A stretch of DNA of 32,879 bases, taken from contig JAFWTG010000117.1 of the NCBI GenBank assembly GCA_017519005.1, positions 1 to 32,879 of the forward strand, written 5' to 3'. Made by a program: the position numbers and the translations under genes. Position 1 is the first letter of the stretch, and each line of letters starts with the position of its first letter. Below the pieces are notes generated by a model that was given only the letters and a program-made list of their open reading frames with translations, ran no database searches and was not told the DNA's origin. Source of the stretch: Oscillospiraceae bacterium (GTDB taxonomy: Bacteria; Bacillota; Clostridia; Oscillospirales; Oscillospiraceae). Shown one piece after another: positions 464 through 9,449 of this stretch.

Positions 464-814
464 GGGGCTGTACCGGTTTCGACGGGGATAGTGAGGCTGG
501 AATAGCGGGCGGAGGCGCCTGACCTCCACAAAACGGGTACCTTTTTTAAATTAACTGACAACGATAATCTCGTTCTGGCTGCTGCTTAATCAGCAACCCG
601 TCCGCCCCGGAAGGCCCACGAGCCGGGCTCGGGCGTGATTCAGTGGGGACCGTGCGTACGGTAAGCTTTGCCCGTGCCATGCATCATGAAGCTACCAAGG
701 CCGTAAGGGTGTTTGTTCCCGTGCGGCCGAGGGAACGTAAATAACAAACTGCGCCCGGAGAAGTTCCCGTCAAGTTATTTTCGGACAGGGGTTCAACTCC
801 CCTCAGCTCCACCA
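464..814 (+). ncRNA. ssrA: Transfer-messenger RNA (tmRNA)
   Basis: One-piece tmRNA that rescues stalled ribosomes by acting first as alanyl-tRNA and then as a short mRNA for a degradation tag. The 5' end GGGGCTGTACCGGTTTCGAC is the hallmark tmRNA start. The 3' end has a T-arm (ACAGGGG TTCAACT CCCCT) and an acceptor strand CAGCTCC followed by an encoded ACCA. The acceptor stem pairs GGGGCTG (464-470) with CAGCTCC (804-810), with one G-T pair. The length of 351 bases is normal for Firmicutes. The tag frame lies at 557-589. SmpB is not in the window. The open frame at 713-919 that crosses this RNA is spurious. Confidence 0.97.
557..589 (+). other. tmRNA tag-peptide reading frame
   Basis: After the upstream motif TTAACT the likely resume codon is GAC at 557. 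Reading on gives D-N-D-N-L-V-L-A-A-A followed by TAA (587-589). With the alanine carried by the tmRNA the tag would be ADNDNLVLAAA. The composition and the C-terminal LAA-type end fit a ClpXP degron, but there are three alanines after the last leucine where two are usual. The resume codon is inferred from position and context. Confidence 0.75.
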
Positions 815-2137: not shown

Positions 2138-2230
2138 TAGGATGATCCAATCAAACGATAAAACGACCCGAAGCGCCGCAGTGCGGACAATCGGGACAGA
2201 CAGCTTGACGAGCTTCGGAAAGGAAGCGGA

Positions 2231-2236
2231 AAGGAG
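2231..2236 (+). promoter_or_regulatory. Ribosome-binding site that sets a GTG start
   Basis: AAGGAG lies 7 bases before GTG 2244. The upstream in-frame ATG at 2142 has no comparable site and would put 34 charged residues ahead of the lipoprotein signal peptide, so the GTG is preferred. Confidence 0.7.
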
Positions 2237-2243
2237 CGTTCCA

Positions 2244-3107
2244 GTGAAGAAAGAAAGAGCGGCATTCCTTTGGAATCGAATTATGTGTGCGGCGGCAGCC
2301 TTCGCGCTGGTCGCCGCGGCAGGCTGCGGGATCCAACCCACGCACGGCGGCAGCGATATTCCCTCGCAGACTGCCGCAACGGAGCTTCCTCTGCAGAGCG
2401 AATCCGAGAGCTCCATCCTCGCTTCGAGCGGCAGGGACGATCCTGAAACGACGAAAGCGACGACCAGAAGGGAGGATCCGGGGTTTATCTCTGAGGACAG
2501 AGTACGGCTGAATACCTTTCTCATCGCCATTGTGCAGCAGAATATCGAAAACAGCGAGACCGATTTGGACGAGGACGCCGAGCTTGTGCGATTTGCCTTC
2601 GGCTATCGCAGAGATAACGACGCAGAGGCCATTGTCGAACGGGAAGACGAAAACGGCCTTTCCTGCCGCACCCTGACCCTTGCGCAGGTTAATGAGACGC
2701 TCGAGCTGTATTTCGGCCGGACCCTCTCCCCTGACAGCGAAGATTACAGCATTCTGAACGAGGCAGGGGAAGGCTTTCACTGCGTATTCCGCGACGGCTG
2801 TTTCTGGAACGTCCCGCCATATCCGGCGGAGGCCTACGATTTCCCGGTACGCTTTTGTCTGGTGGACAAGATCAACGAAGAGAGCGCCACGGTACATTTC
2901 AGACTGTATCGGGTCAATCCCGATATCTGGGGCGAGGGGGAAGCAAAGCGGCATCTGCCCCTTCTTCCCATGTTCAGTTTTCTGGACGCGGAAAGCACCA
3001 ATCCCGAGACAAAGGGGTGGATCACCAGGATCGGTCAGGGCACCGCTGTCCTCAGCGTTACGGGAGAAGAACTGAGGCTGGTCAAGTTGACGACCTCGCT
3101 CTATTGA
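2244..3107 (+). CDS. Putative lipoprotein of unknown function
   Basis: With the GTG start the protein has 287 residues. It begins with a lipoprotein signal peptide: a charged N-region (VKKER), a hydrophobic stretch rich in Ala, and a lipobox VAAAGC with the lipid-attachment cysteine at residue 28. A Ser/Thr/Glu-rich linker follows (about residues 30-75), as is usual for surface lipoproteins that need to clear the wall. The folded part (about 80-287) has many acidic and aromatic residues. I do not recognise its family. It follows the XRE regulator on the same strand and meets the small minus-strand gene at 3120 with only 12 bases between. It could be a sensor or ligand-binding partner of the regulator; that is inference from position only. 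Confidence 0.75.
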   Translation: MKKERAAFLWNRIMCAAAAFALVAAAGCGIQPTHGGSDIPSQTAATELPLQSESESSILASSGRDDPETTKATTRREDPGFISEDRVRLNTFLIAIVQQNIENSETDLDEDAELVRFAFGYRRDNDAEAIVEREDENGLSCRTLTLAQVNETLELYFGRTLSPDSEDYSILNEAGEGFHCVFRDGCFWNVPPYPAEAYDFPVRFCLVDKINEESATVHFRLYRVNPDIWGEGEAKRHLPLLPMFSFLDAESTNPETKGWITRIGQGTAVLSVTGEELRLVKLTTSLY

Positions 3108-3119
3108 TCCGCGTTCTGG

Positions 3120-3329
3120 TTATTCCTTTACTTCCTCTTCATCCAGACCGGCGGCGGGGATGGCAAAGCTGATGTGATCCTTCTCTTCGCCGGGGATTTT
3201 CCTCAAACCCCAAAGAAGGCTGCGAACTTCCAGGGTTCCGGCCTCCTTGTCTCTCTTGATCTGATACGGGATCGCAGAGAGTGCCAGCGCGCAAAGGGCG
3301 GTACGGCCAAGAATTTTTCCGATTTTCAT
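3120..3329 (-). CDS. Small membrane-anchored protein, conserved-type hypothetical
   Basis: A 69-residue protein. Residues about 8-22 (GRTALCALALSAIPY) form a single hydrophobic segment after a short basic start, so it is probably anchored in the membrane. The remainder is charged and ends in a very acidic tail (LDEEEVKE). A good Shine-Dalgarno site (GGAGGTG) lies about 5 bases before the ATG, which supports it as a real gene. Short proteins with this build are common in Clostridia, but I know of no function. It lies 81 bases downstream of the flavin-reductase gene on the same strand and may be read from the same transcript. Confidence 0.65.
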   Translation of the reverse strand: MKIGKILGRTALCALALSAIPYQIKRDKEAGTLEVRSLLWGLRKIPGEEKDHISFAIPAAGLDEEEVKE

Positions 3330-3359
3330 GGGAACACCTCCATCAATTTGATTTTAAAT

Positions 3360-3418
3360 AATTATTTTGAACGTGCTGCGGCGGCCAGGGCCTCTGCGGC
3401 ACGTTTGCTTCTATAACA
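3360..3418 (-). terminator. Weak hairpin between flavin reductase and small membrane protein genes
   Basis: On the minus strand AACGTGC and GCACGTT form a 7-bp outer stem, with GGCC/GGCC inside it, followed by an A/T-rich run without a clear T-tract. It could be a weak terminator or attenuator that lowers expression of the gene at 3120-3329. Confidence 0.3.
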
Positions 3419-3971
3419 GTTGTTTCCCGATCCCCCAGGCGTCTCCGACCTTTTCTCCGATCACGTGGTAGGCGTGATTGAAGGGGTCGAAGCAGAGGGG
3501 AGCGGCCTTTGCCATGTCGAGCCTGCCGTCGGTCAGGGCGGACTCGTCCACGCTGACGTTGACGATCTCGCCCCGGAGGATGCAGCTCTGCTTGTTGAAC
3601 TCGATGACCCGGCACTCGATGCAGACCGGCAGCTCCCGGATGATGGGGGCGTTGACCAGCGCGCTTCTCTCGGCGGTGAAGCCGGCCCGGGCGAACTTGT
3701 CCGCGGTCTTGAGGCCGGTGGCGATGCCCACGTAGTCACAGCCTGCGGCGTGGGCCGCGTCGGCCATGCTGACGGTGAAGGCGCCGGTTCTGGCGAAGTT
3801 GAGGCAGGTCTTGTGGCCGGGGGAGAGGCAGACGGACAGCTCGTTCTCCTCGCTGATGCCGCCCCAGGCGGCGTTCATGACGTTGGGCACCCCATTTTCA
3901 TCGTAAGTCGCCAGAATCCACACCGGCTGGGGAAGGCTCAGGGGCTTCGCGCCATAGTTTTTTCTGCTCAT
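3411..3971 (-). CDS. Flavin reductase-like (FMN-binding split-barrel) protein
   Basis: A 186-residue protein of the flavin-reductase-like domain family, small cytoplasmic proteins that bind FMN and reduce flavin or act as flavin oxidoreductases. Family features: the opening PVWILATYDENGVPNVMNAAW (a substrate-to-beta-strand motif that accepts FMN), CLSPGHKTCLNFARTGAFTV, a conserved DKF segment (AGFTAERS follows), and IECRVIEF in the later barrel strands. The length is right for the family. The ATG is preceded by AAGGAGG about 9 bases upstream. A promoter facing this gene lies at 4006-4034, back to back with that of the SLH protein gene. The physiological substrate cannot be told from the sequence. 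Confidence 0.85.
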   Translation of the reverse strand: MSRKNYGAKPLSLPQPVWILATYDENGVPNVMNAAWGGISEENELSVCLSPGHKTCLNFARTGAFTVSMADAAHAAGCDYVGIATGLKTADKFARAGFTAERSALVNAPIIRELPVCIECRVIEFNKQSCILRGEIVNVSVDESALTDGRLDMAKAAPLCFDPFNHAYHVIGEKVGDAWGIGKQLL

Positions 3972-4005
3972 GCTAATTGCCTCCTTCTAATATGTTTGTA
4001 TATCA

Positions 4006-4034
4006 AGTATAGCACGGCAGACGGCCGGATGCAA
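4006..4034 (-). promoter_or_regulatory. Promoter for the flavin reductase gene
   Basis: On the minus strand TTGCAT (4029-4034), a 17-base spacer and TATACT (4006-4011), 35 bases before the ATG. The -10 box is good and the -35 box is weak. Confidence 0.5.
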
Positions 4035-4068
4035 GAGAAAAAGCCAACGAGAAAATATCCAAAATCTC

Positions 4069-4097
4069 TGTACATCCTTGAATAAATATGCTATACT
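4069..4097 (+). promoter_or_regulatory. Promoter for the SLH protein gene
   Basis: TGTACA (4069-4074), a 17-base spacer and TATACT (4092-4097), 31 bases before the ATG at 4129. The -35 box matches four of six positions, so the call is moderate. It is divergent from the flavin reductase promoter, with about 35 bases between the two -35 boxes. Confidence 0.5.
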
Positions 4098-4128
4098 GGA
4101 TTTGGAGAAAAATATTAAGGAGGTATCC

Positions 4129-7100
4129 ATGATGAAGCGCAAGCTCACAGCGATGATCCTGGTCCTGTGCATGGTTCTTTCTCTGCTTCCCGGGACGGTG
4201 TTCGCGCAGGAGGAACCCCTTGCCTACAATCAGTTCCGGGTCACCTACGACATGAACGGCGGCTCGGTCTACTGGTCCAGAGGCAGCAGCCTGCCCGAGG
4301 GAACGGAGGAGGACTTTCTGGCGGACGGGGACCGGACCACCAACGTCAACCAGGCCAACACGGTCCATTTCCTGATCGACCCGACCCGGGCCGTGAACCG
4401 GGAGGCCTGGAACAACGGCGAATTCGTCACCTACGAGCCCTTCGAGGCGGCGGACCGCTCCATCAACGTCCGGGTCAGCTATCCCACGGAGGACAGCTGG
4501 TACAGCGCCAACGCCGTGGTGGACGGTCAGGCAACAGAGACCGGCTATACCTTTGAAAACAACGTGCTCTCCTTCAAGGCGGAGGCGGCGGTCGGAGAGG
4601 TCAACGTGGACATCTGGTGGACGGACCACGACTTCGCGTTTTTCAACTTTGAACCCAACGAGGGAGAGATCCTCATCGACTACCAGTGGAACAACGAGGG
4701 CGAGGTCATCGTCGATCCCGGCACGACGATCCTGCGCAGCTGCGCCCAGCCGGAGTATTCCCGCACCCGGTTCACGGTGCCCGACACCACCCAGAGCGTC
4801 AGCTTCACCTGGAGCGGCCACCTGCGGAGGCTCTGGGTCGAGGGCGAGGGAGACGAGAACGGCTGGGGCGAGATCTCCGGCGTCGGGCTCAGCTCCTATA
4901 CCTACGAACTGAACCGGGTCAACGAGTTCAACGATCCCTGGAACCACTACGGCGTCAACTTTGACTTCTTCTGGAACTGGAGCTGCGAGCTCCAGGCCTG
5001 CTACGACGTCTGGGGCGGCCTGGTCTACATGGGCCTGGGCGACGCCGAGCCCACGGAGCTGTTGTATGACGGCGATTGGCAGAGCTTTGCGGCGGACGGC
5101 CAGATTCGACCGGTCCGTCTGCGCTTCGACCAGGAACACGGCCTGGACCGCGGTCAGTATGAACAGGACGGCGTACTGCACTACGTGGACTCCAACGTGG
5201 CCCCCGAGGACCGGCTGCTCTTCGTCTTCGCCGAGTACACGACGGCCGACGGCGATGAGATACGGGACTGGATCGTGGAAGCCGGCGAGGCCGTCATGCC
5301 CGGTTTCACCCTGGCAAACAACATTCTGAGCTTCACCCCGGAGACGGGCTGTGAAATGCGGCTGGAGGTCTTCTGGTCCGAGGCGGAATACGATTTCCGG
5401 AACTTCGGCTGGGACGACGACACCCTGATGATCGAGTTCAACGCCTGGGGCGGCGGCACCGTCCACTGGGACGAGGGCGTGGACGTGGGAACCCTGCTCC
5501 AGCCCGAGCACGGCCGGGGCAAGATCCTGCTGCCCCTGAACACGCCCCAGCTGAGCTTCACCTGGGACGGCCACCTGCGCACCCTGGGCGTCTTCGGCCT
5601 GGACGGAAGCGAATGGAATCAGACGGAGTGGCAGGAGCCCGACTTCGACTCCTACACCCTGAGCCTGAACCAGACGGAGCCCGACGGCAGCCCACGGCGG
5701 CACTACATGATCAACTTCGACTTCGCCGACGACAACGATTGGAACTTCCTCTTTGCCGCCAACTACGATGACAACGGGGGCCTGGTCTTTTACGGCGTGG
5801 ACGAGATTCCCGACATGGAGCCTGAGGACTATCTGCCCCGGCAGGGCAATGGCAGAGCCTTCTGGCCGGACAACATCAGCTTCCGGTCCGGCGACGAGCC
5901 CGGCACGATCTATCTGCGCTTTGACCCGACCCGATGCATCGACTTTGAGCAGTGGGAGCAGGGCAATCTGGTCTTCCGGGATTCCTGGGAAAGCGAGGAC
6001 CGGGCCATCTCCGTCGTCGCCAAATACGCGGGTCTGGACGGAAGCTGGCACGAGGAGCTCCTGGTCCTCTATAGCGAAGCGGTCAGCGCGCGCGCGAGCT
6101 ATGATGGCAGCCTGTTGAGCTTCACGCCGGAGAGCGGCTACGGGGTGGACTTCGATATCTACTGGACCTTCCAGGATTACGAGTTCTCCCAGTTCCGGCC
6201 CACGGAGGAAAAGCCGGTGATGGTGAACGTGGACTGGTGGGGCGAAGGCAGCATCGGCATCGTGAACAGCCTGTCCGATGAGGATGTGATGATCGGGGAC
6301 GGACGGATGATGGTCCGCCTGTCCCGGGAGGTCAGCTCCCTGACCCTGGAATGGGACATGAACGACAATCTCCGCTGCATCAACGTCTACGGCCTGGGCG
6401 AGGACGGCGAGTGGCTCAACGGCATCGAGCCCTACGGCAACTGCTACACCCTGTATCTGGACCAGACGGACGAATGGGGCAACCCGAGGGATTGGTATCA
6501 CATCCAGTTCGAGTTTGAGGGGAACTCCATGCCCGACAACGGGATGCTCTTCGTCCGCTACGACGCGAACGGCGGCTCCGTCTTCCGGAGTCTCGACTAC
6601 GAAAACTATCCCGAGGCAAGCGCGGAGTACTACGAATTCGACGGTCAGGGCTTCTATTTCCTGGACGAGAACGGGGACAGCCGGGACGTCCGCCTCCTGA
6701 TCGACGAGACCAAGGCCATTGACTGGGAGCTTCTGGACAGCCAGGGCGAGATCGGCTTTCGGGAGCCCAACTGGTACGAGAACCGCTGTCTGATCGTCTA
6801 CGTCCGCAGCAGCAAGCTGGACGGCGTGGTGGTCTGGGACGGCAATCTGACGGAGTACGGCGAGTACAAGGGCTTCTCCTACTCCGGCGGCGAATACCTT
6901 ATCTTCGCGCCGTGGGGCAGCAGCGAGATGGAGATCAAGATCTACTGGACGGCAGAGGACTACTTCTTTGATATGTACCAGGGAACCCCGGAGGCACCGG
7001 TGGTGATCCAGGTAGACTGGTGGGGCGACGGTCAGATCAACCTGCCCGAGGTCCCTGAGGAGAACCTTTATCTGGAAGACAACCGCGCCAGGATCCGGGT

Positions 7101-9390
7101 CCCGCTGGACACCGAAAGCTTGACCTTTACCTGGGACGAGAACGATCCCCTGCGGCAGATCAACGTCAACGGCATGCAGGGGTATGAGGACTGGTGCAAC
7201 GACGTCCCCTTCGAGGGCAATTCCTATACCCTGGAGCTCAACGCGACCTGGGAGGACGGCAATCCCAGAGACTGGTATCACGTCCAGTTTGAGTTTGAGG
7301 ACGGCGGCTTCCAGGAGGACGGCATGCTGATCTCCTTCTACGACCAGGGAAAGGGCTCCATCTTCTGGGCCCTGGGCGAGGAGGAGCTTGCGGCGGACTC
7401 CGACCACTATCTGGGCTTTGGCTTTGAACGGGCTGTCTCCTACCTGGAGGACGGTGAAATCCTGCCGGTGCGACTCTTCTTCGACGAAACCCGGGCCGCC
7501 TTCTTTGACGACGACGGAGAACTCATAGGCTTCGAGGATGCTGTGGAGCTGAACGACCGCGCAATCACCGTTACCGCCGAGAGCATTGATTATAACGGCA
7601 AAATTGTGGACAACGGCGTCCTGACTGAATTGGGACAGGCACACGGCTACAGCTTCGAGAACAATCTGTTGAGCTTTATTCCGGAGAATGAGGTCTACGT
7701 CCTCCTGCACGTAAACTGGTGTCTCGCCGACACGGAGTTTGACGATTTCCAGCCCACGGAGGAATACCCGGTCATCGTCGAGTATTCCTGGCGCAATTAC
7801 GGCGAGATCATCCCGCCCGAGGGGATCGCGCCGGAGAATATCCTCCTTCAGCCCGGTCGGGCGAGAATGCGGGTTGCCGCCGATACCGAGAGCCTGACCT
7901 TTACCTGGGCGGAGGATTACGGCGTCAACCGGATCGAGTATTCCGATGTGAACTACGAGCAGGAGTGGCACGAATACTACGTGGACCAGTCTGAGCCGCA
8001 CAGCTTCACCCTGTATCTGGACAACGAGGATGACTTCGGCGTCTACCACTATTACATTCTGGACTTTGAGTTCTTCCCGGACAGCCGCTATCAGCTCTGG
8101 ATCGACTGGACAGGCTCCGAGGGCAACGTCTACTTCGGCCTGGATGAGATCCCGGAAATCGGCCTCGAGCAGTACGTCTTTGAGAATCCCTCCTTCCTGA
8201 CGGAGGATGCACAGGGGAATCCGCGCATCGGCACGGTTTATCTCCGTCTGGACCATCTGCACAGCATTTCGTACTTTGAGGAACAACCCACGGAGCTGTA
8301 TGATCTGGGCGATTGGGAGGGCTACGATCCCAGTATCTGGGTGGAATACGTCCATGACGACGGCAGCTGGTTTGAAGGCTTCGCGGTACGCCACGGTCAG
8401 GCCGCGGCCCCGGGCTTCAGTTTTGAGAACGACGTGCTCTCCTTCACGCCGGAAAACCAGAAGCCTGTCATAATCCGGGTATTCTGGAGCGACGATGACA
8501 TGAACTATGCCAGCTTCGAGGGATCGGAGGAGAAGCCCGTCGTTGTGGAGCTGCTGCTGGGCGGCAGAGCGCCCGTGGAGCTGCCGGAGCTGCCGGCGGA
8601 GGACGTTCTGGTCTGGCACGCCGCGGAGCACGACTACGTGAAGCTGCGCGTACCCGAAAGCTGTGCGGAGCTCAGCTTCGGCTGGGCCTGCGTGGGCGTC
8701 ATCGCCATGATTGAGATCGACGGCGCGGGGGAGAACGGAGAGCGCCTGACGCTCTATCCGCCGCACGGCACGAGCTATACGCTGGAGCTGAATCAAACCG
8801 AATTCGGCGCTGCGAAGCAGCATTATTTCCTGGCCTTCTGGGCGTTTGGCTGGCCGGAAAACCCCTTCGTTGACGTACCGGAAAACGCCTGGTATCGGGA
8901 CGCGGTGATTCTGATGAAGCTCGCGGGCATCACGGCCGGCACCTCGGTGGACACCTTCAGCCCGAATCAGATCGCCACCCGCGCCGAGGCCGTAACCTTC
9001 CTGTGGCGCGCCTACGGTTCTCAGGAGCCGACCGATACCGAATGCGGCTTTACGGATCTGGAGCAGGACGCCTGGTATCGGGACGCGGTCCTCTGGGCGG
9101 TGGAAAAGGGAATCACCGGCGGCACCTCCGAGACGACCTTCAGCCCAAATCAGGTTTGCAATCGGGCCGAAATCGTCACCTTCCTCTGGCGGGCGGCCGG
9201 GTCTCCCACGTCGGAGCTTCAAAGCTGTCCCTTCCTGGACGTATCGGAGCAGGACTGGTACAGAGACGCGGTTTTGTGGGCCTATGAAAACGGCGTGACC
9301 GCGGGCACCTCCGCGACGAGCTTCTCTCCGACAAAGAGCTGCACAAGGGCGGAAATTTCGATGTTCCTGTTCTGGGTTCTGATGAACTGA
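4129..9390 (+). CDS. Giant secreted repeat protein anchored by three SLH domains
   Basis: A protein of 1753 residues from ATG 4129; AAGGAGG (4117-4123) sits 5 bases upstream, and ATG 4132 (8 bases away) is equally possible. The ATG at 4078 lies upstream of the likely promoter and is rejected. Residues 1-26 are a signal peptide (MMKRK, hydrophobic core, cleavage after VFA). Residues about 36-1577 hold six divergent repeats of 252-265 residues. Residues about 1578-1753 are three SLH domains beginning FVDVPENAWYRDA, FTDLEQDAWYRDA and FLDVSEQDWYRDA, each with a TFSP/SFSP-plus-TRAE or NRAE motif; SLH domains bind pyruvylated secondary wall polymer in many Firmicutes. The protein is very acidic and rich in Trp, Tyr and Phe. 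It has no catalytic motif I recognise, so a surface, adhesive or glycan-binding role is only a guess. It is likely monocistronic, with a terminator directly after it. Confidence 0.88.
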   Translation: MMKRKLTAMILVLCMVLSLLPGTVFAQEEPLAYNQFRVTYDMNGGSVYWSRGSSLPEGTEEDFLADGDRTTNVNQANTVHFLIDPTRAVNREAWNNGEFVTYEPFEAADRSINVRVSYPTEDSWYSANAVVDGQATETGYTFENNVLSFKAEAAVGEVNVDIWWTDHDFAFFNFEPNEGEILIDYQWNNEGEVIVDPGTTILRSCAQPEYSRTRFTVPDTTQSVSFTWSGHLRRLWVEGEGDENGWGEISGVGLSSYTYELNRVNEFNDPWNHYGVNFDFFWNWSCELQACYDVWGGLVYMGLGDAEPTELLYDGDWQSFAADGQIRPVRLRFDQEHGLDRGQYEQDGVLHYVDSNVAPEDRLLFVFAEYTTADGDEIRDWIVEAGEAVMPGFTLANNILSFTPETGCEMRLEVFWSEAEYDFRNFGWDDDTLMIEFNAWGGGTVHWDEGVDVGTLLQPEHGRGKILLPLNTPQLSFTWDGHLRTLGVFGLDGSEWNQTEWQEPDFDSYTLSLNQTEPDGSPRRHYMINFDFADDNDWNFLFAANYDDNGGLVFYGVDEIPDMEPEDYLPRQGNGRAFWPDNISFRSGDEPGTIYLRFDPTRCIDFEQWEQGNLVFRDSWESEDRAISVVAKYAGLDGSWHEELLVLYSEAVSARASYDGSLLSFTPESGYGVDFDIYWTFQDYEFSQFRPTEEKPVMVNVDWWGEGSIGIVNSLSDEDVMIGDGRMMVRLSREVSSLTLEWDMNDNLRCINVYGLGEDGEWLNGIEPYGNCYTLYLDQTDEWGNPRDWYHIQFEFEGNSMPDNGMLFVRYDANGGSVFRSLDYENYPEASAEYYEFDGQGFYFLDENGDSRDVRLLIDETKAIDWELLDSQGEIGFREPNWYENRCLIVYVRSSKLDGVVVWDGNLTEYGEYKGFSYSGGEYLIFAPWGSSEMEIKIYWTAEDYFFDMYQGTPEAPVVIQVDWWGDGQINLPEVPEENLYLEDNRARIRVPLDTESLTFTWDENDPLRQINVNGMQGYEDWCNDVPFEGNSYTLELNATWEDGNPRDWYHVQFEFEDGGFQEDGMLISFYDQGKGSIFWALGEEELAADSDHYLGFGFERAVSYLEDGEILPVRLFFDETRAAFFDDDGELIGFEDAVELNDRAITVTAESIDYNGKIVDNGVLTELGQAHGYSFENNLLSFIPENEVYVLLHVNWCLADTEFDDFQPTEEYPVIVEYSWRNYGEIIPPEGIAPENILLQPGRARMRVAADTESLTFTWAEDYGVNRIEYSDVNYEQEWHEYYVDQSEPHSFTLYLDNEDDFGVYHYYILDFEFFPDSRYQLWIDWTGSEGNVYFGLDEIPEIGLEQYVFENPSFLTEDAQGNPRIGTVYLRLDHLHSISYFEEQPTELYDLGDWEGYDPSIWVEYVHDDGSWFEGFAVRHGQAAAPGFSFENDVLSFTPENQKPVIIRVFWSDDDMNYASFEGSEEKPVVVELLLGGRAPVELPELPAEDVLVWHAAEHDYVKLRVPESCAELSFGWACVGVIAMIEIDGAGENGERLTLYPPHGTSYTLELNQTEFGAAKQHYFLAFWAFGWPENPFVDVPENAWYRDAVILMKLAGITAGTSVDTFSPNQIATRAEAVTFLWRAYGSQEPTDTECGFTDLEQDAWYRDAVLWAVEKGITGGTSETTFSPNQVCNRAEIVTFLWRAAGSPTSELQSCPFLDVSEQDWYRDAVLWAYENGVTAGTSATSFSPTKSCTRAEISMFLFWVLMN
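4234..8859 (+). repeat. Six tandem ~255-residue protein repeats
   Basis: Repeat starts at about 4234, 4990, 5749, 6544, 7324 and 8092 (residues 36, 288, 541, 806, 1066 and 1322); spacings are 252, 253, 265, 260, 256 and 256 residues. Each has two parts. Part A opens with a YDxNGGxVxW-like strand, then VxLxFDxTRxID, DRxIxVxxxY, DGxW, and NNxLSFTPE followed by IxW. Part B opens PVxVxVDWWGxGxI, then GRARxRVPxDTxSLTFTW, LRxIxVxG, YTLxLNQT and WYHxxFEF. The copies have diverged strongly in protein and DNA, so they are old duplications and not a recent tandem array. The strand-like pattern suggests paired beta-sandwich domains. Confidence 0.85.
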
Positions 9391-9408
9391 GCGACGAAAA
9401 ATCACACA

Positions 9409-9449
9409 CAAACAAAGAGGTCGTCCGCTGCGGACGTCCTCTTTGTTTG
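9409..9449. terminator. Bidirectional terminator between SLH gene and fchA
   Basis: CAAACAAAGAGG (9409-9420) pairs exactly with CCTCTTTGTTTG (9438-9449), and inside it CGTCCG pairs with CGGACG around CTG, with one T-T mismatch between the two stems. It lies between two convergent genes, 18 bases after the SLH gene and 36 bases after the fchA stop, so it can serve both. Confidence 0.85.

Follow-up and report, generated by a model that had tools for sequence, protein, structure and literature searches.

A large SLH-anchored protein of an Oscillospiraceae bacterium carries six divergent two-part repeats of confident predicted fold

The gene at positions 4129-9390 (plus strand) of the window, i.e. 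of the whole 32,879-nucleotide stretch of DNA analysed here, encodes a surface-type protein whose six tandem repeats are, from profile comparison and structure prediction, a real module of confident predicted fold, belonging to a family that is undescribed in the libraries we searched. The open reading frame specifies 1753 amino acids, with the coordinates and architecture noted earlier. A start resembling a signal peptide (residues 1-26, 4129-4206; MKRK, a hydrophobic core and a VFA/Q cut) was recognised by eye. It is followed by R1, the repeat farthest from the anchor (4231-4989, second half 4657-4983), R2 (4990-5751, second half 5413-5739), R3 (5752-6543, second half 6205-6531), R4 (6544-7323, second half 6988-7311), R5 (7324-8091, second half 7759-8088) and R6, which adjoins the anchor (8092-8853, second half 8527-8853), all on the plus strand and delimited by repeat alignment and profiles. 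Pfam finds three SLH domains on the same strand (PF00395; 8863-8991, 9049-9171 and 9229-9354; E 8.2e-28) and nothing else above cut-off, and SLH is likewise the sole Pfam family above cut-off in all six orthologues of the genus. The six regular repeats and the three SLH domains of the original prediction were found again, and so was the strong acidity: the pI is 4.05, with 18.4% of D+E versus 5.5% of K+R. Aromatic residues reach 15.2%; in a comparison set of 12 further SLH-type ORFs from this genome, a crude motif pick from 15 stretches and thus a subset of its SLH genes, they make up 8.6-13.1%.

The six repeats align end to end over their full length, with a pairwise protein identity of 26-37%. 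Profiles built on five of them recovered the left-out repeat at 138.8-209.5 bits; the best of 500 shuffles per repeat gave 3.6-11.0 bits. AlphaFold2, run on R3 with an alignment of 32 repeats, predicts mostly beta strands with short helices, at a mean pLDDT of 92.7 and a pTM of 0.85, and for the second half of R3 alone (109 amino acids) the values are 92.3 and 0.84. Disorder is ruled out by these scores for both the repeat R3 and its second half. As the second half is confidently predicted by itself, the term "two-part", already used in the original prediction, is apt. An internal duplication giving rise to the two halves was also considered but finds no support in their sequences: P 0.024 with profiles of the six repeats (one of 30 shuffles being equally good), P 0.038 over six columns with profiles A6 and A5, and P 0.15 over nine columns, under the top shuffles, with 42 repeats. 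By eye, the strand patterns of the two halves are similar.

Our repeat set comprises 42 repeats from nine proteins, of which 32 were used for the single scans and for the tree. Scanned one by one, these 32 stayed at noise level, the best E being 0.012 in Pfam (one member), 0.019 in NCBIfam (one member) and 0.0052 in PHROGs (two members, an unnamed family). The PDB sequences compared with our profiles contained nothing convincing, the best E being 0.79 for the repeat, 0.18 for the second half and 0.046 for the first half. By Foldseek, no PDB match reached E<=0.001, neither among the 816 for the whole repeat (best, the chain of an Ig domain, E 0.014, query TM-score 0.15) nor among the 666 for the second half (best, a fungal lectin, E 0.019, query TM-score 0.38). 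For the second half, fungal lectins occupy the first nine ranks, with weak E-values, and the best query TM-score among the 50 matches listed is 0.48, for a pilin (E 0.19). In BFVD, one of 472 matches stood at E 8.1e-4, with a TM-score of 0.22. A few family matches below cut-off, fn3_PAP (E 0.012), PA14 (0.02) and five others, each in one member, were judged to be noise, as were Filamin (E 0.039) in G189 and fn3_PAP (0.021) in the protein P0006; several of the weak family matches are Ig-like, which may be a faint signal of the fold. The profile search, structure prediction and fold comparison that the original prediction had called for thus returned a fold rather than disorder, and no confident match of a single repeat to a known family.

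The repeat, undescribed in these libraries, is nevertheless not wholly without relatives. The profile of the second half (42 repeats) scores 20.7 against that of the cadherin-like family PF12733 (P 0.0021, HH probability 13%), above all of 40 column shuffles (maximum 14.2); with 32 repeats the score is 19.6, for shuffle maxima of 11.7 (of 40) and 12.9 (of 50). The local alignment covers 29 columns and, forced wide, 78 columns at 14% identity. However, the repeat half has 105 profile columns versus 82 for PF12733, whose own profile was made from 22 of the 36 available matches and is that of the sole Ig-like family compared. PF12733 is absent from the families matched at E<=1 by the 32 repeats, the HMMER filters dropping most matches above about 0.1, and gives no match at E<=0.001 in the window's genome. 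This resemblance may be a general likeness between beta-sandwiches. The first half recalls Flg_new (PF09479), the Listeria-Bacteroides repeat, by its first hairpin, V-x-YD-x-NGG: the 42-repeat profile scores 20.2 (maximum of 40 shuffles 15.6) against a Flg_new profile of 69 domains gathered with a single seed. The match is however confined to 35 columns, or to 13 with the 32-repeat profile (17.4, shuffle maximum 15.1), and hmmscan reports no Flg_new among the 32 repeats. The cross pairs of halves and families are at shuffle level. Altogether, the two resemblances are faint leads that stop short of family membership. No paper describing this repeat was found in titles or the beginnings of abstracts, within a coverage that leaves out most subscription journals.

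Concerning the gene itself, translation probably starts at the second ATG (4132, giving 1752 amino acids): this is the equivalent of the first start codon of the ORF in G017, G002 and G022 (both ATGs are present in the orthologue of G004), and it lies 8 bases from the ribosome-binding site AAGGAGG (4117-4123, plus strand, identical in G004), versus 5 for the first ATG. A promoter-like site, TGTACA-17-TATACT with a TG extension, matches the consensus at 4069-4097 (plus strand) and is also present upstream of the G004 orthologue. A terminator-like inverted repeat at 9409-9449, seen in the sequence and by scan, separates the gene from its convergent neighbour; its core (9422-9436) is reported on both strands, and a variant of the hairpin is kept in G013, a genome without the repeat gene. 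In the region, the consensus scans give counts no higher than expected from shuffles, two promoter-like sites for a shuffle mean of 1.3 and three terminator-like sites for 3.8. The gene is solitary: it diverges from a flavin reductase gene (3411-3971, minus strand) and converges with a formiminotransferase-cyclodeaminase gene, the last of a minus-strand run for histidine degradation. A long antisense ORF (4003-9411, minus strand, 1802 amino acids) spans the repeat gene in codon register with its frame. We rejected it as a gene: it has no Pfam match, and the sense frame contains no TTA, CTA or TCA codon (zero of each), so that sense codon use alone keeps it open. Elsewhere in the window we observe a tmRNA gene (464-814, plus strand; tag peptide DNDNLVLAAA) and, directly after an HTH-TPR gene, an ORF of 321 amino acids (2142-3107, plus strand) with no Pfam match at E<=1.

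The family is rare, being found in six of 24 genomes of the genus and in four sporadic relatives within the class. A profile search of 60 relatives' genomes gave matches in six, all within the genus. At E<=0.01, seven of the 24 genus genomes respond, six strongly; the seventh, G023 (E 0.002), was judged spurious, its ORF being capsid-like by eye. The gene is missing from all four genus genomes with a completeness of 90% or more, so that its absences are not due only to incompleteness. Beyond the genus, matches occur in five of 300 genomes of the family (the window's own, G323, G189, and weakly G023 and G172), two of 394 of the order (own and G438), two of 391 of the class (own and G919) and one of 299 of the phylum (own); these samples overlap, and those of class and phylum were searched with the broader repeat profile A4. 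The G919 match (E 1.6e-9) is partial, distant and single, in a very large acidic surface-like protein (L077 3217-10572) from another family of the class; that of G172 (E 0.007) is a single match of 51 columns in another SLH protein. Within the window's genome, the six-repeat profile finds only the six places described at E<=1, and a search at maximum sensitivity of frames of at least 300 amino acids, in 15 stretches around other SLH genes, reached at best 2.2 bits (E 0.32). With the whole protein, tblastn gave C-terminal matches only, both in phages (12 records, residues 1500 onwards, a part made up of SLH with no more than the end of R6) and among the 20 plasmid records listed of 59; no relative of the repeat was present among 85 pattern matches in viral_contigs.

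The number of repeats varies from four to six across the six orthologues, and the more distant relatives place the module in other contexts. In G323 (L063 2410-7950, minus strand), four repeats precede a PnrA-like Bmp domain (an ABC substrate-binding domain, E 2e-27) and SLH in one polypeptide, which shows the module to be a reusable component. G438 has four repeats and SLH, with a FIVAR match below cut-off; in G189, Flg_new and SLH follow one divergent repeat and another stretch that the profile matches over 50 columns. Among five named relatives of the genus, one is titled from the rumen of a water buffalo and two bear "RUG" isolate codes, which we take to designate rumen genomes; the other two are "uncultured Clostridia" MAGs whose titles name no host.

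In the tree of 32 repeats, the grouping is by position and not by protein: the five-repeat proteins contain equivalents of R1, R3, R4, R5 and R6, while R2 is found only in G000 (the window's genome), G004 and G017. Because repeats group by position across species, the duplications are older than these species; this clustering, together with the 26-37% identity, rules out recent slippage. Whole-repeat dN/dS, 0.08-0.54 in four species pairs, indicates purifying selection on the repeats, and the view of ancient, constrained duplications expressed in the original prediction is thereby borne out. The highest whole-repeat values belong to R1 for G000-G004 (0.368) and G000-G017 (0.424), to the second repeat for G004-G017 (0.535, followed by R4 at 0.453 and R1 at 0.449), and again to the second repeat, counterpart of R3, for G002-G022 (0.178). 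That the first or second repeat comes on top in all four pairs hints faintly at a fast-evolving exposed tip, faintly since the pairs share members and the gene looks mosaic. In G002-G022, moreover, the SLH part has a higher dN/dS (0.208) than every repeat, which fits poorly with a specially exposed tip.

The gene indeed has a mosaic look, as if species had exchanged segments of it. Between G000 and G004, the synonymous divergence increases from the first repeat towards the anchor (R1 0.14, R2 0.20, R3 0.39, R4 0.35, R5 0.80, R6 0.79, SLH 1.04), four flanking genes giving 0.22, 0.67, 0.48 and 0.45. At 1352 sites two of the three genomes G000, G004 and G017 agree: G000 with G004 at 633, G004 with G017 at 446 and G000 with G017 at 273. 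The first pairing leads up to about residue 1100 (with a tie in 301-400), the second from about residue 1200 on; the maximum chi-square is 206, near residue 941, for a maximum of 21.7 in 2000 permutations. In the same direction, the repeat tree unites G000 and G004 in R1-R4, and G004 and G017 in R5 and R6 (support 0.935 and 0.688). All compared contigs are of MAG type, and a chimeric assembly may lie behind the mosaic or the neighbourhood pattern.

The repeat gene is also, from its neighbourhoods, an accessory gene. In the close relative G013, the pair of genes on the left side of the flavin reductase shares 99.7% and 99.1% protein identity with that of the window; the flavin reductase is 92% identical from residue 26 on, and FTCD_C 87.5%. 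There (L155 8257-8270), the matches to window 2638-3893 and to 9407 onwards are just 14 bases apart, so that G013 lacks the repeat gene and, with it, the beginning of the one for the flavin reductase; this genome is 74% complete and has no repeat match elsewhere. Near-identity of the left match steps visibly lower at about 3640 of the window, inside the flavin reductase gene, which is either a recombination edge or an assembly chimera. By eye, the repeat gene stands beside other genes in G002, G022 and G006, with a common downstream neighbour, and beside yet others in G017.

What could be the function of such a protein? With moderate confidence, we favour a fibre tethered to the surface by SLH and binding through its own repeats. 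The protein, secreted if we judge from the signal peptide seen by eye, would display its six folded two-part modules in a row; docking on a pyruvylated cell-wall polymer would fall to the three SLH domains, while the repeats would reach outwards with R1 at the tip and themselves bind a target such as plant fibre, the surface of the host or another cell, their number and divergence setting reach and specificity. The extended shape, the binding and the ligand of the array are here what we infer. The anchoring agrees with the three SLH domains above cut-off and with a CsaB-type pyruvyl transferase in the same genome (TIGR03609, 235.2 bits for a curated cut-off of 213.1), as is proper to SLH-anchored surface proteins. 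As the six orthologues have no Pfam-known domain besides repeats and SLH, it would most likely be the repeats themselves that bind. The predicted fold of the repeat and of its second half, a varying repeat number with conserved positions, the reuse of the module in G323, the signs of segment exchange, the richness in aromatic residues and, weakly, the dN/dS of the first and second repeats also speak for this view. Against a binding fibre, the best fold matches (Ig domains, fungal lectins, pilin) all have E above 0.01 and no binding domain was found; the identical anatomy would, besides, be expected of a mere spacer or of a minor component of an S-layer.

The repeats could thus be a passive stalk, providing length and stiffness, with any binding left to R1 alone or to a partner protein. 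Tandem folded modules ending in a C-terminal anchor are the usual anatomy of the stalks of Gram-positive fibrillar adhesins (PMC8286594), and in every species pair it is one of the first two repeats that evolves fastest. In G323 a PnrA-like binding domain does belong to the same polypeptide as the repeats; it lies, however, on the anchor side, between repeats and SLH, whereas the head of a stalk would be expected elsewhere, and this argues, without proving it, for a role of the G323 repeats beyond mere spacing. As the six genus proteins have no further Pfam-known domain, and as the repeats are rich in aromatic residues and keep position-specific sequences, we regard a mere stalk as rather unlikely.

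A more specific proposal is an array of CBM-like, aromatic-rich half-domains holding plant polysaccharide near surface enzymes. The high aromatic content, the fungal lectins among the weak fold matches and the rumen provenance of some relatives go in this direction, as does the company of other SLH proteins with GH53, or with a subtilase and dockerin, in the genome. However, Pfam detects no CBM, just two of the six repeats, R3 and R4, have the exact WWGxG motif, and the recognised neighbours (up to 15849) concern flavin reduction and histidine degradation, not polysaccharide breakdown, so that we hold this proposal to be unlikely. The genome contains other very large SLH proteins (contigs C79, C65, C47 and C70 of G000; 1758-3526 amino acids); four of its SLH proteins, one of them scanned in part, have GH53, subtilase with dockerin, cleaved-adhesin or PA14 domains, company that would suit a bacterium living on fibre. 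Finally, a structural S-layer protein in a subset of species, which SLH, large size, strong acidity, a single gene and a consensus ribosome-binding site might evoke, is very improbable given the strong matches in only six of 24 genus genomes (none of the four at least 90% complete) and the many other SLH genes (51 SLH matches in the genome).

Coming back to the fibre binding through its repeats, it can be set beside known systems. The kind of protein, an anchored surface protein of tandem modules, is known; the domain family is new. Like fibrillar adhesins, whose anchors include SLH (PMC8286594), it is a long surface protein of Gram-positive type, in which folded modules follow one another in tandem and the anchor is C-terminal. 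It differs from them in having no known adhesive domain or stalk family: the definition of fibrillar adhesin-like proteins given there asks, besides a filament standing out from the cell, for at least one of each, whereas Pfam finds SLH only. A module of confident predicted fold is thus added to the parts list of gut surface proteins, and the 42 repeats in nine proteins form a set open to naming and to further searches. Should plant fibre or the host surface prove to be what the repeats bind, this would bear on the attachment of uncultured gut and rumen bacteria. A bolder view, which we consider doubtful, is that they form a new superfamily of two-domain repeats of Clostridia surfaces, with position-specific binding kept for a long time and segments re-assorted between gut species by homologous recombination, the repertoire coming from the swapping of ordered modules and not from slippage. 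Periscope Proteins share with the present protein the tandem repeats placed between the N-terminus and a wall anchor, and a repeat number that varies in related species, here from four to six. As described in PMC9704523, their repeats are highly identical, in coding sequence too, and define them; those of the window differ widely at the protein level and have kept their positions. Where Periscope Proteins change in length through identical repeats, the present gene is a natural example of divergent modules, kept in order, that recombination seems to carry from species to species.
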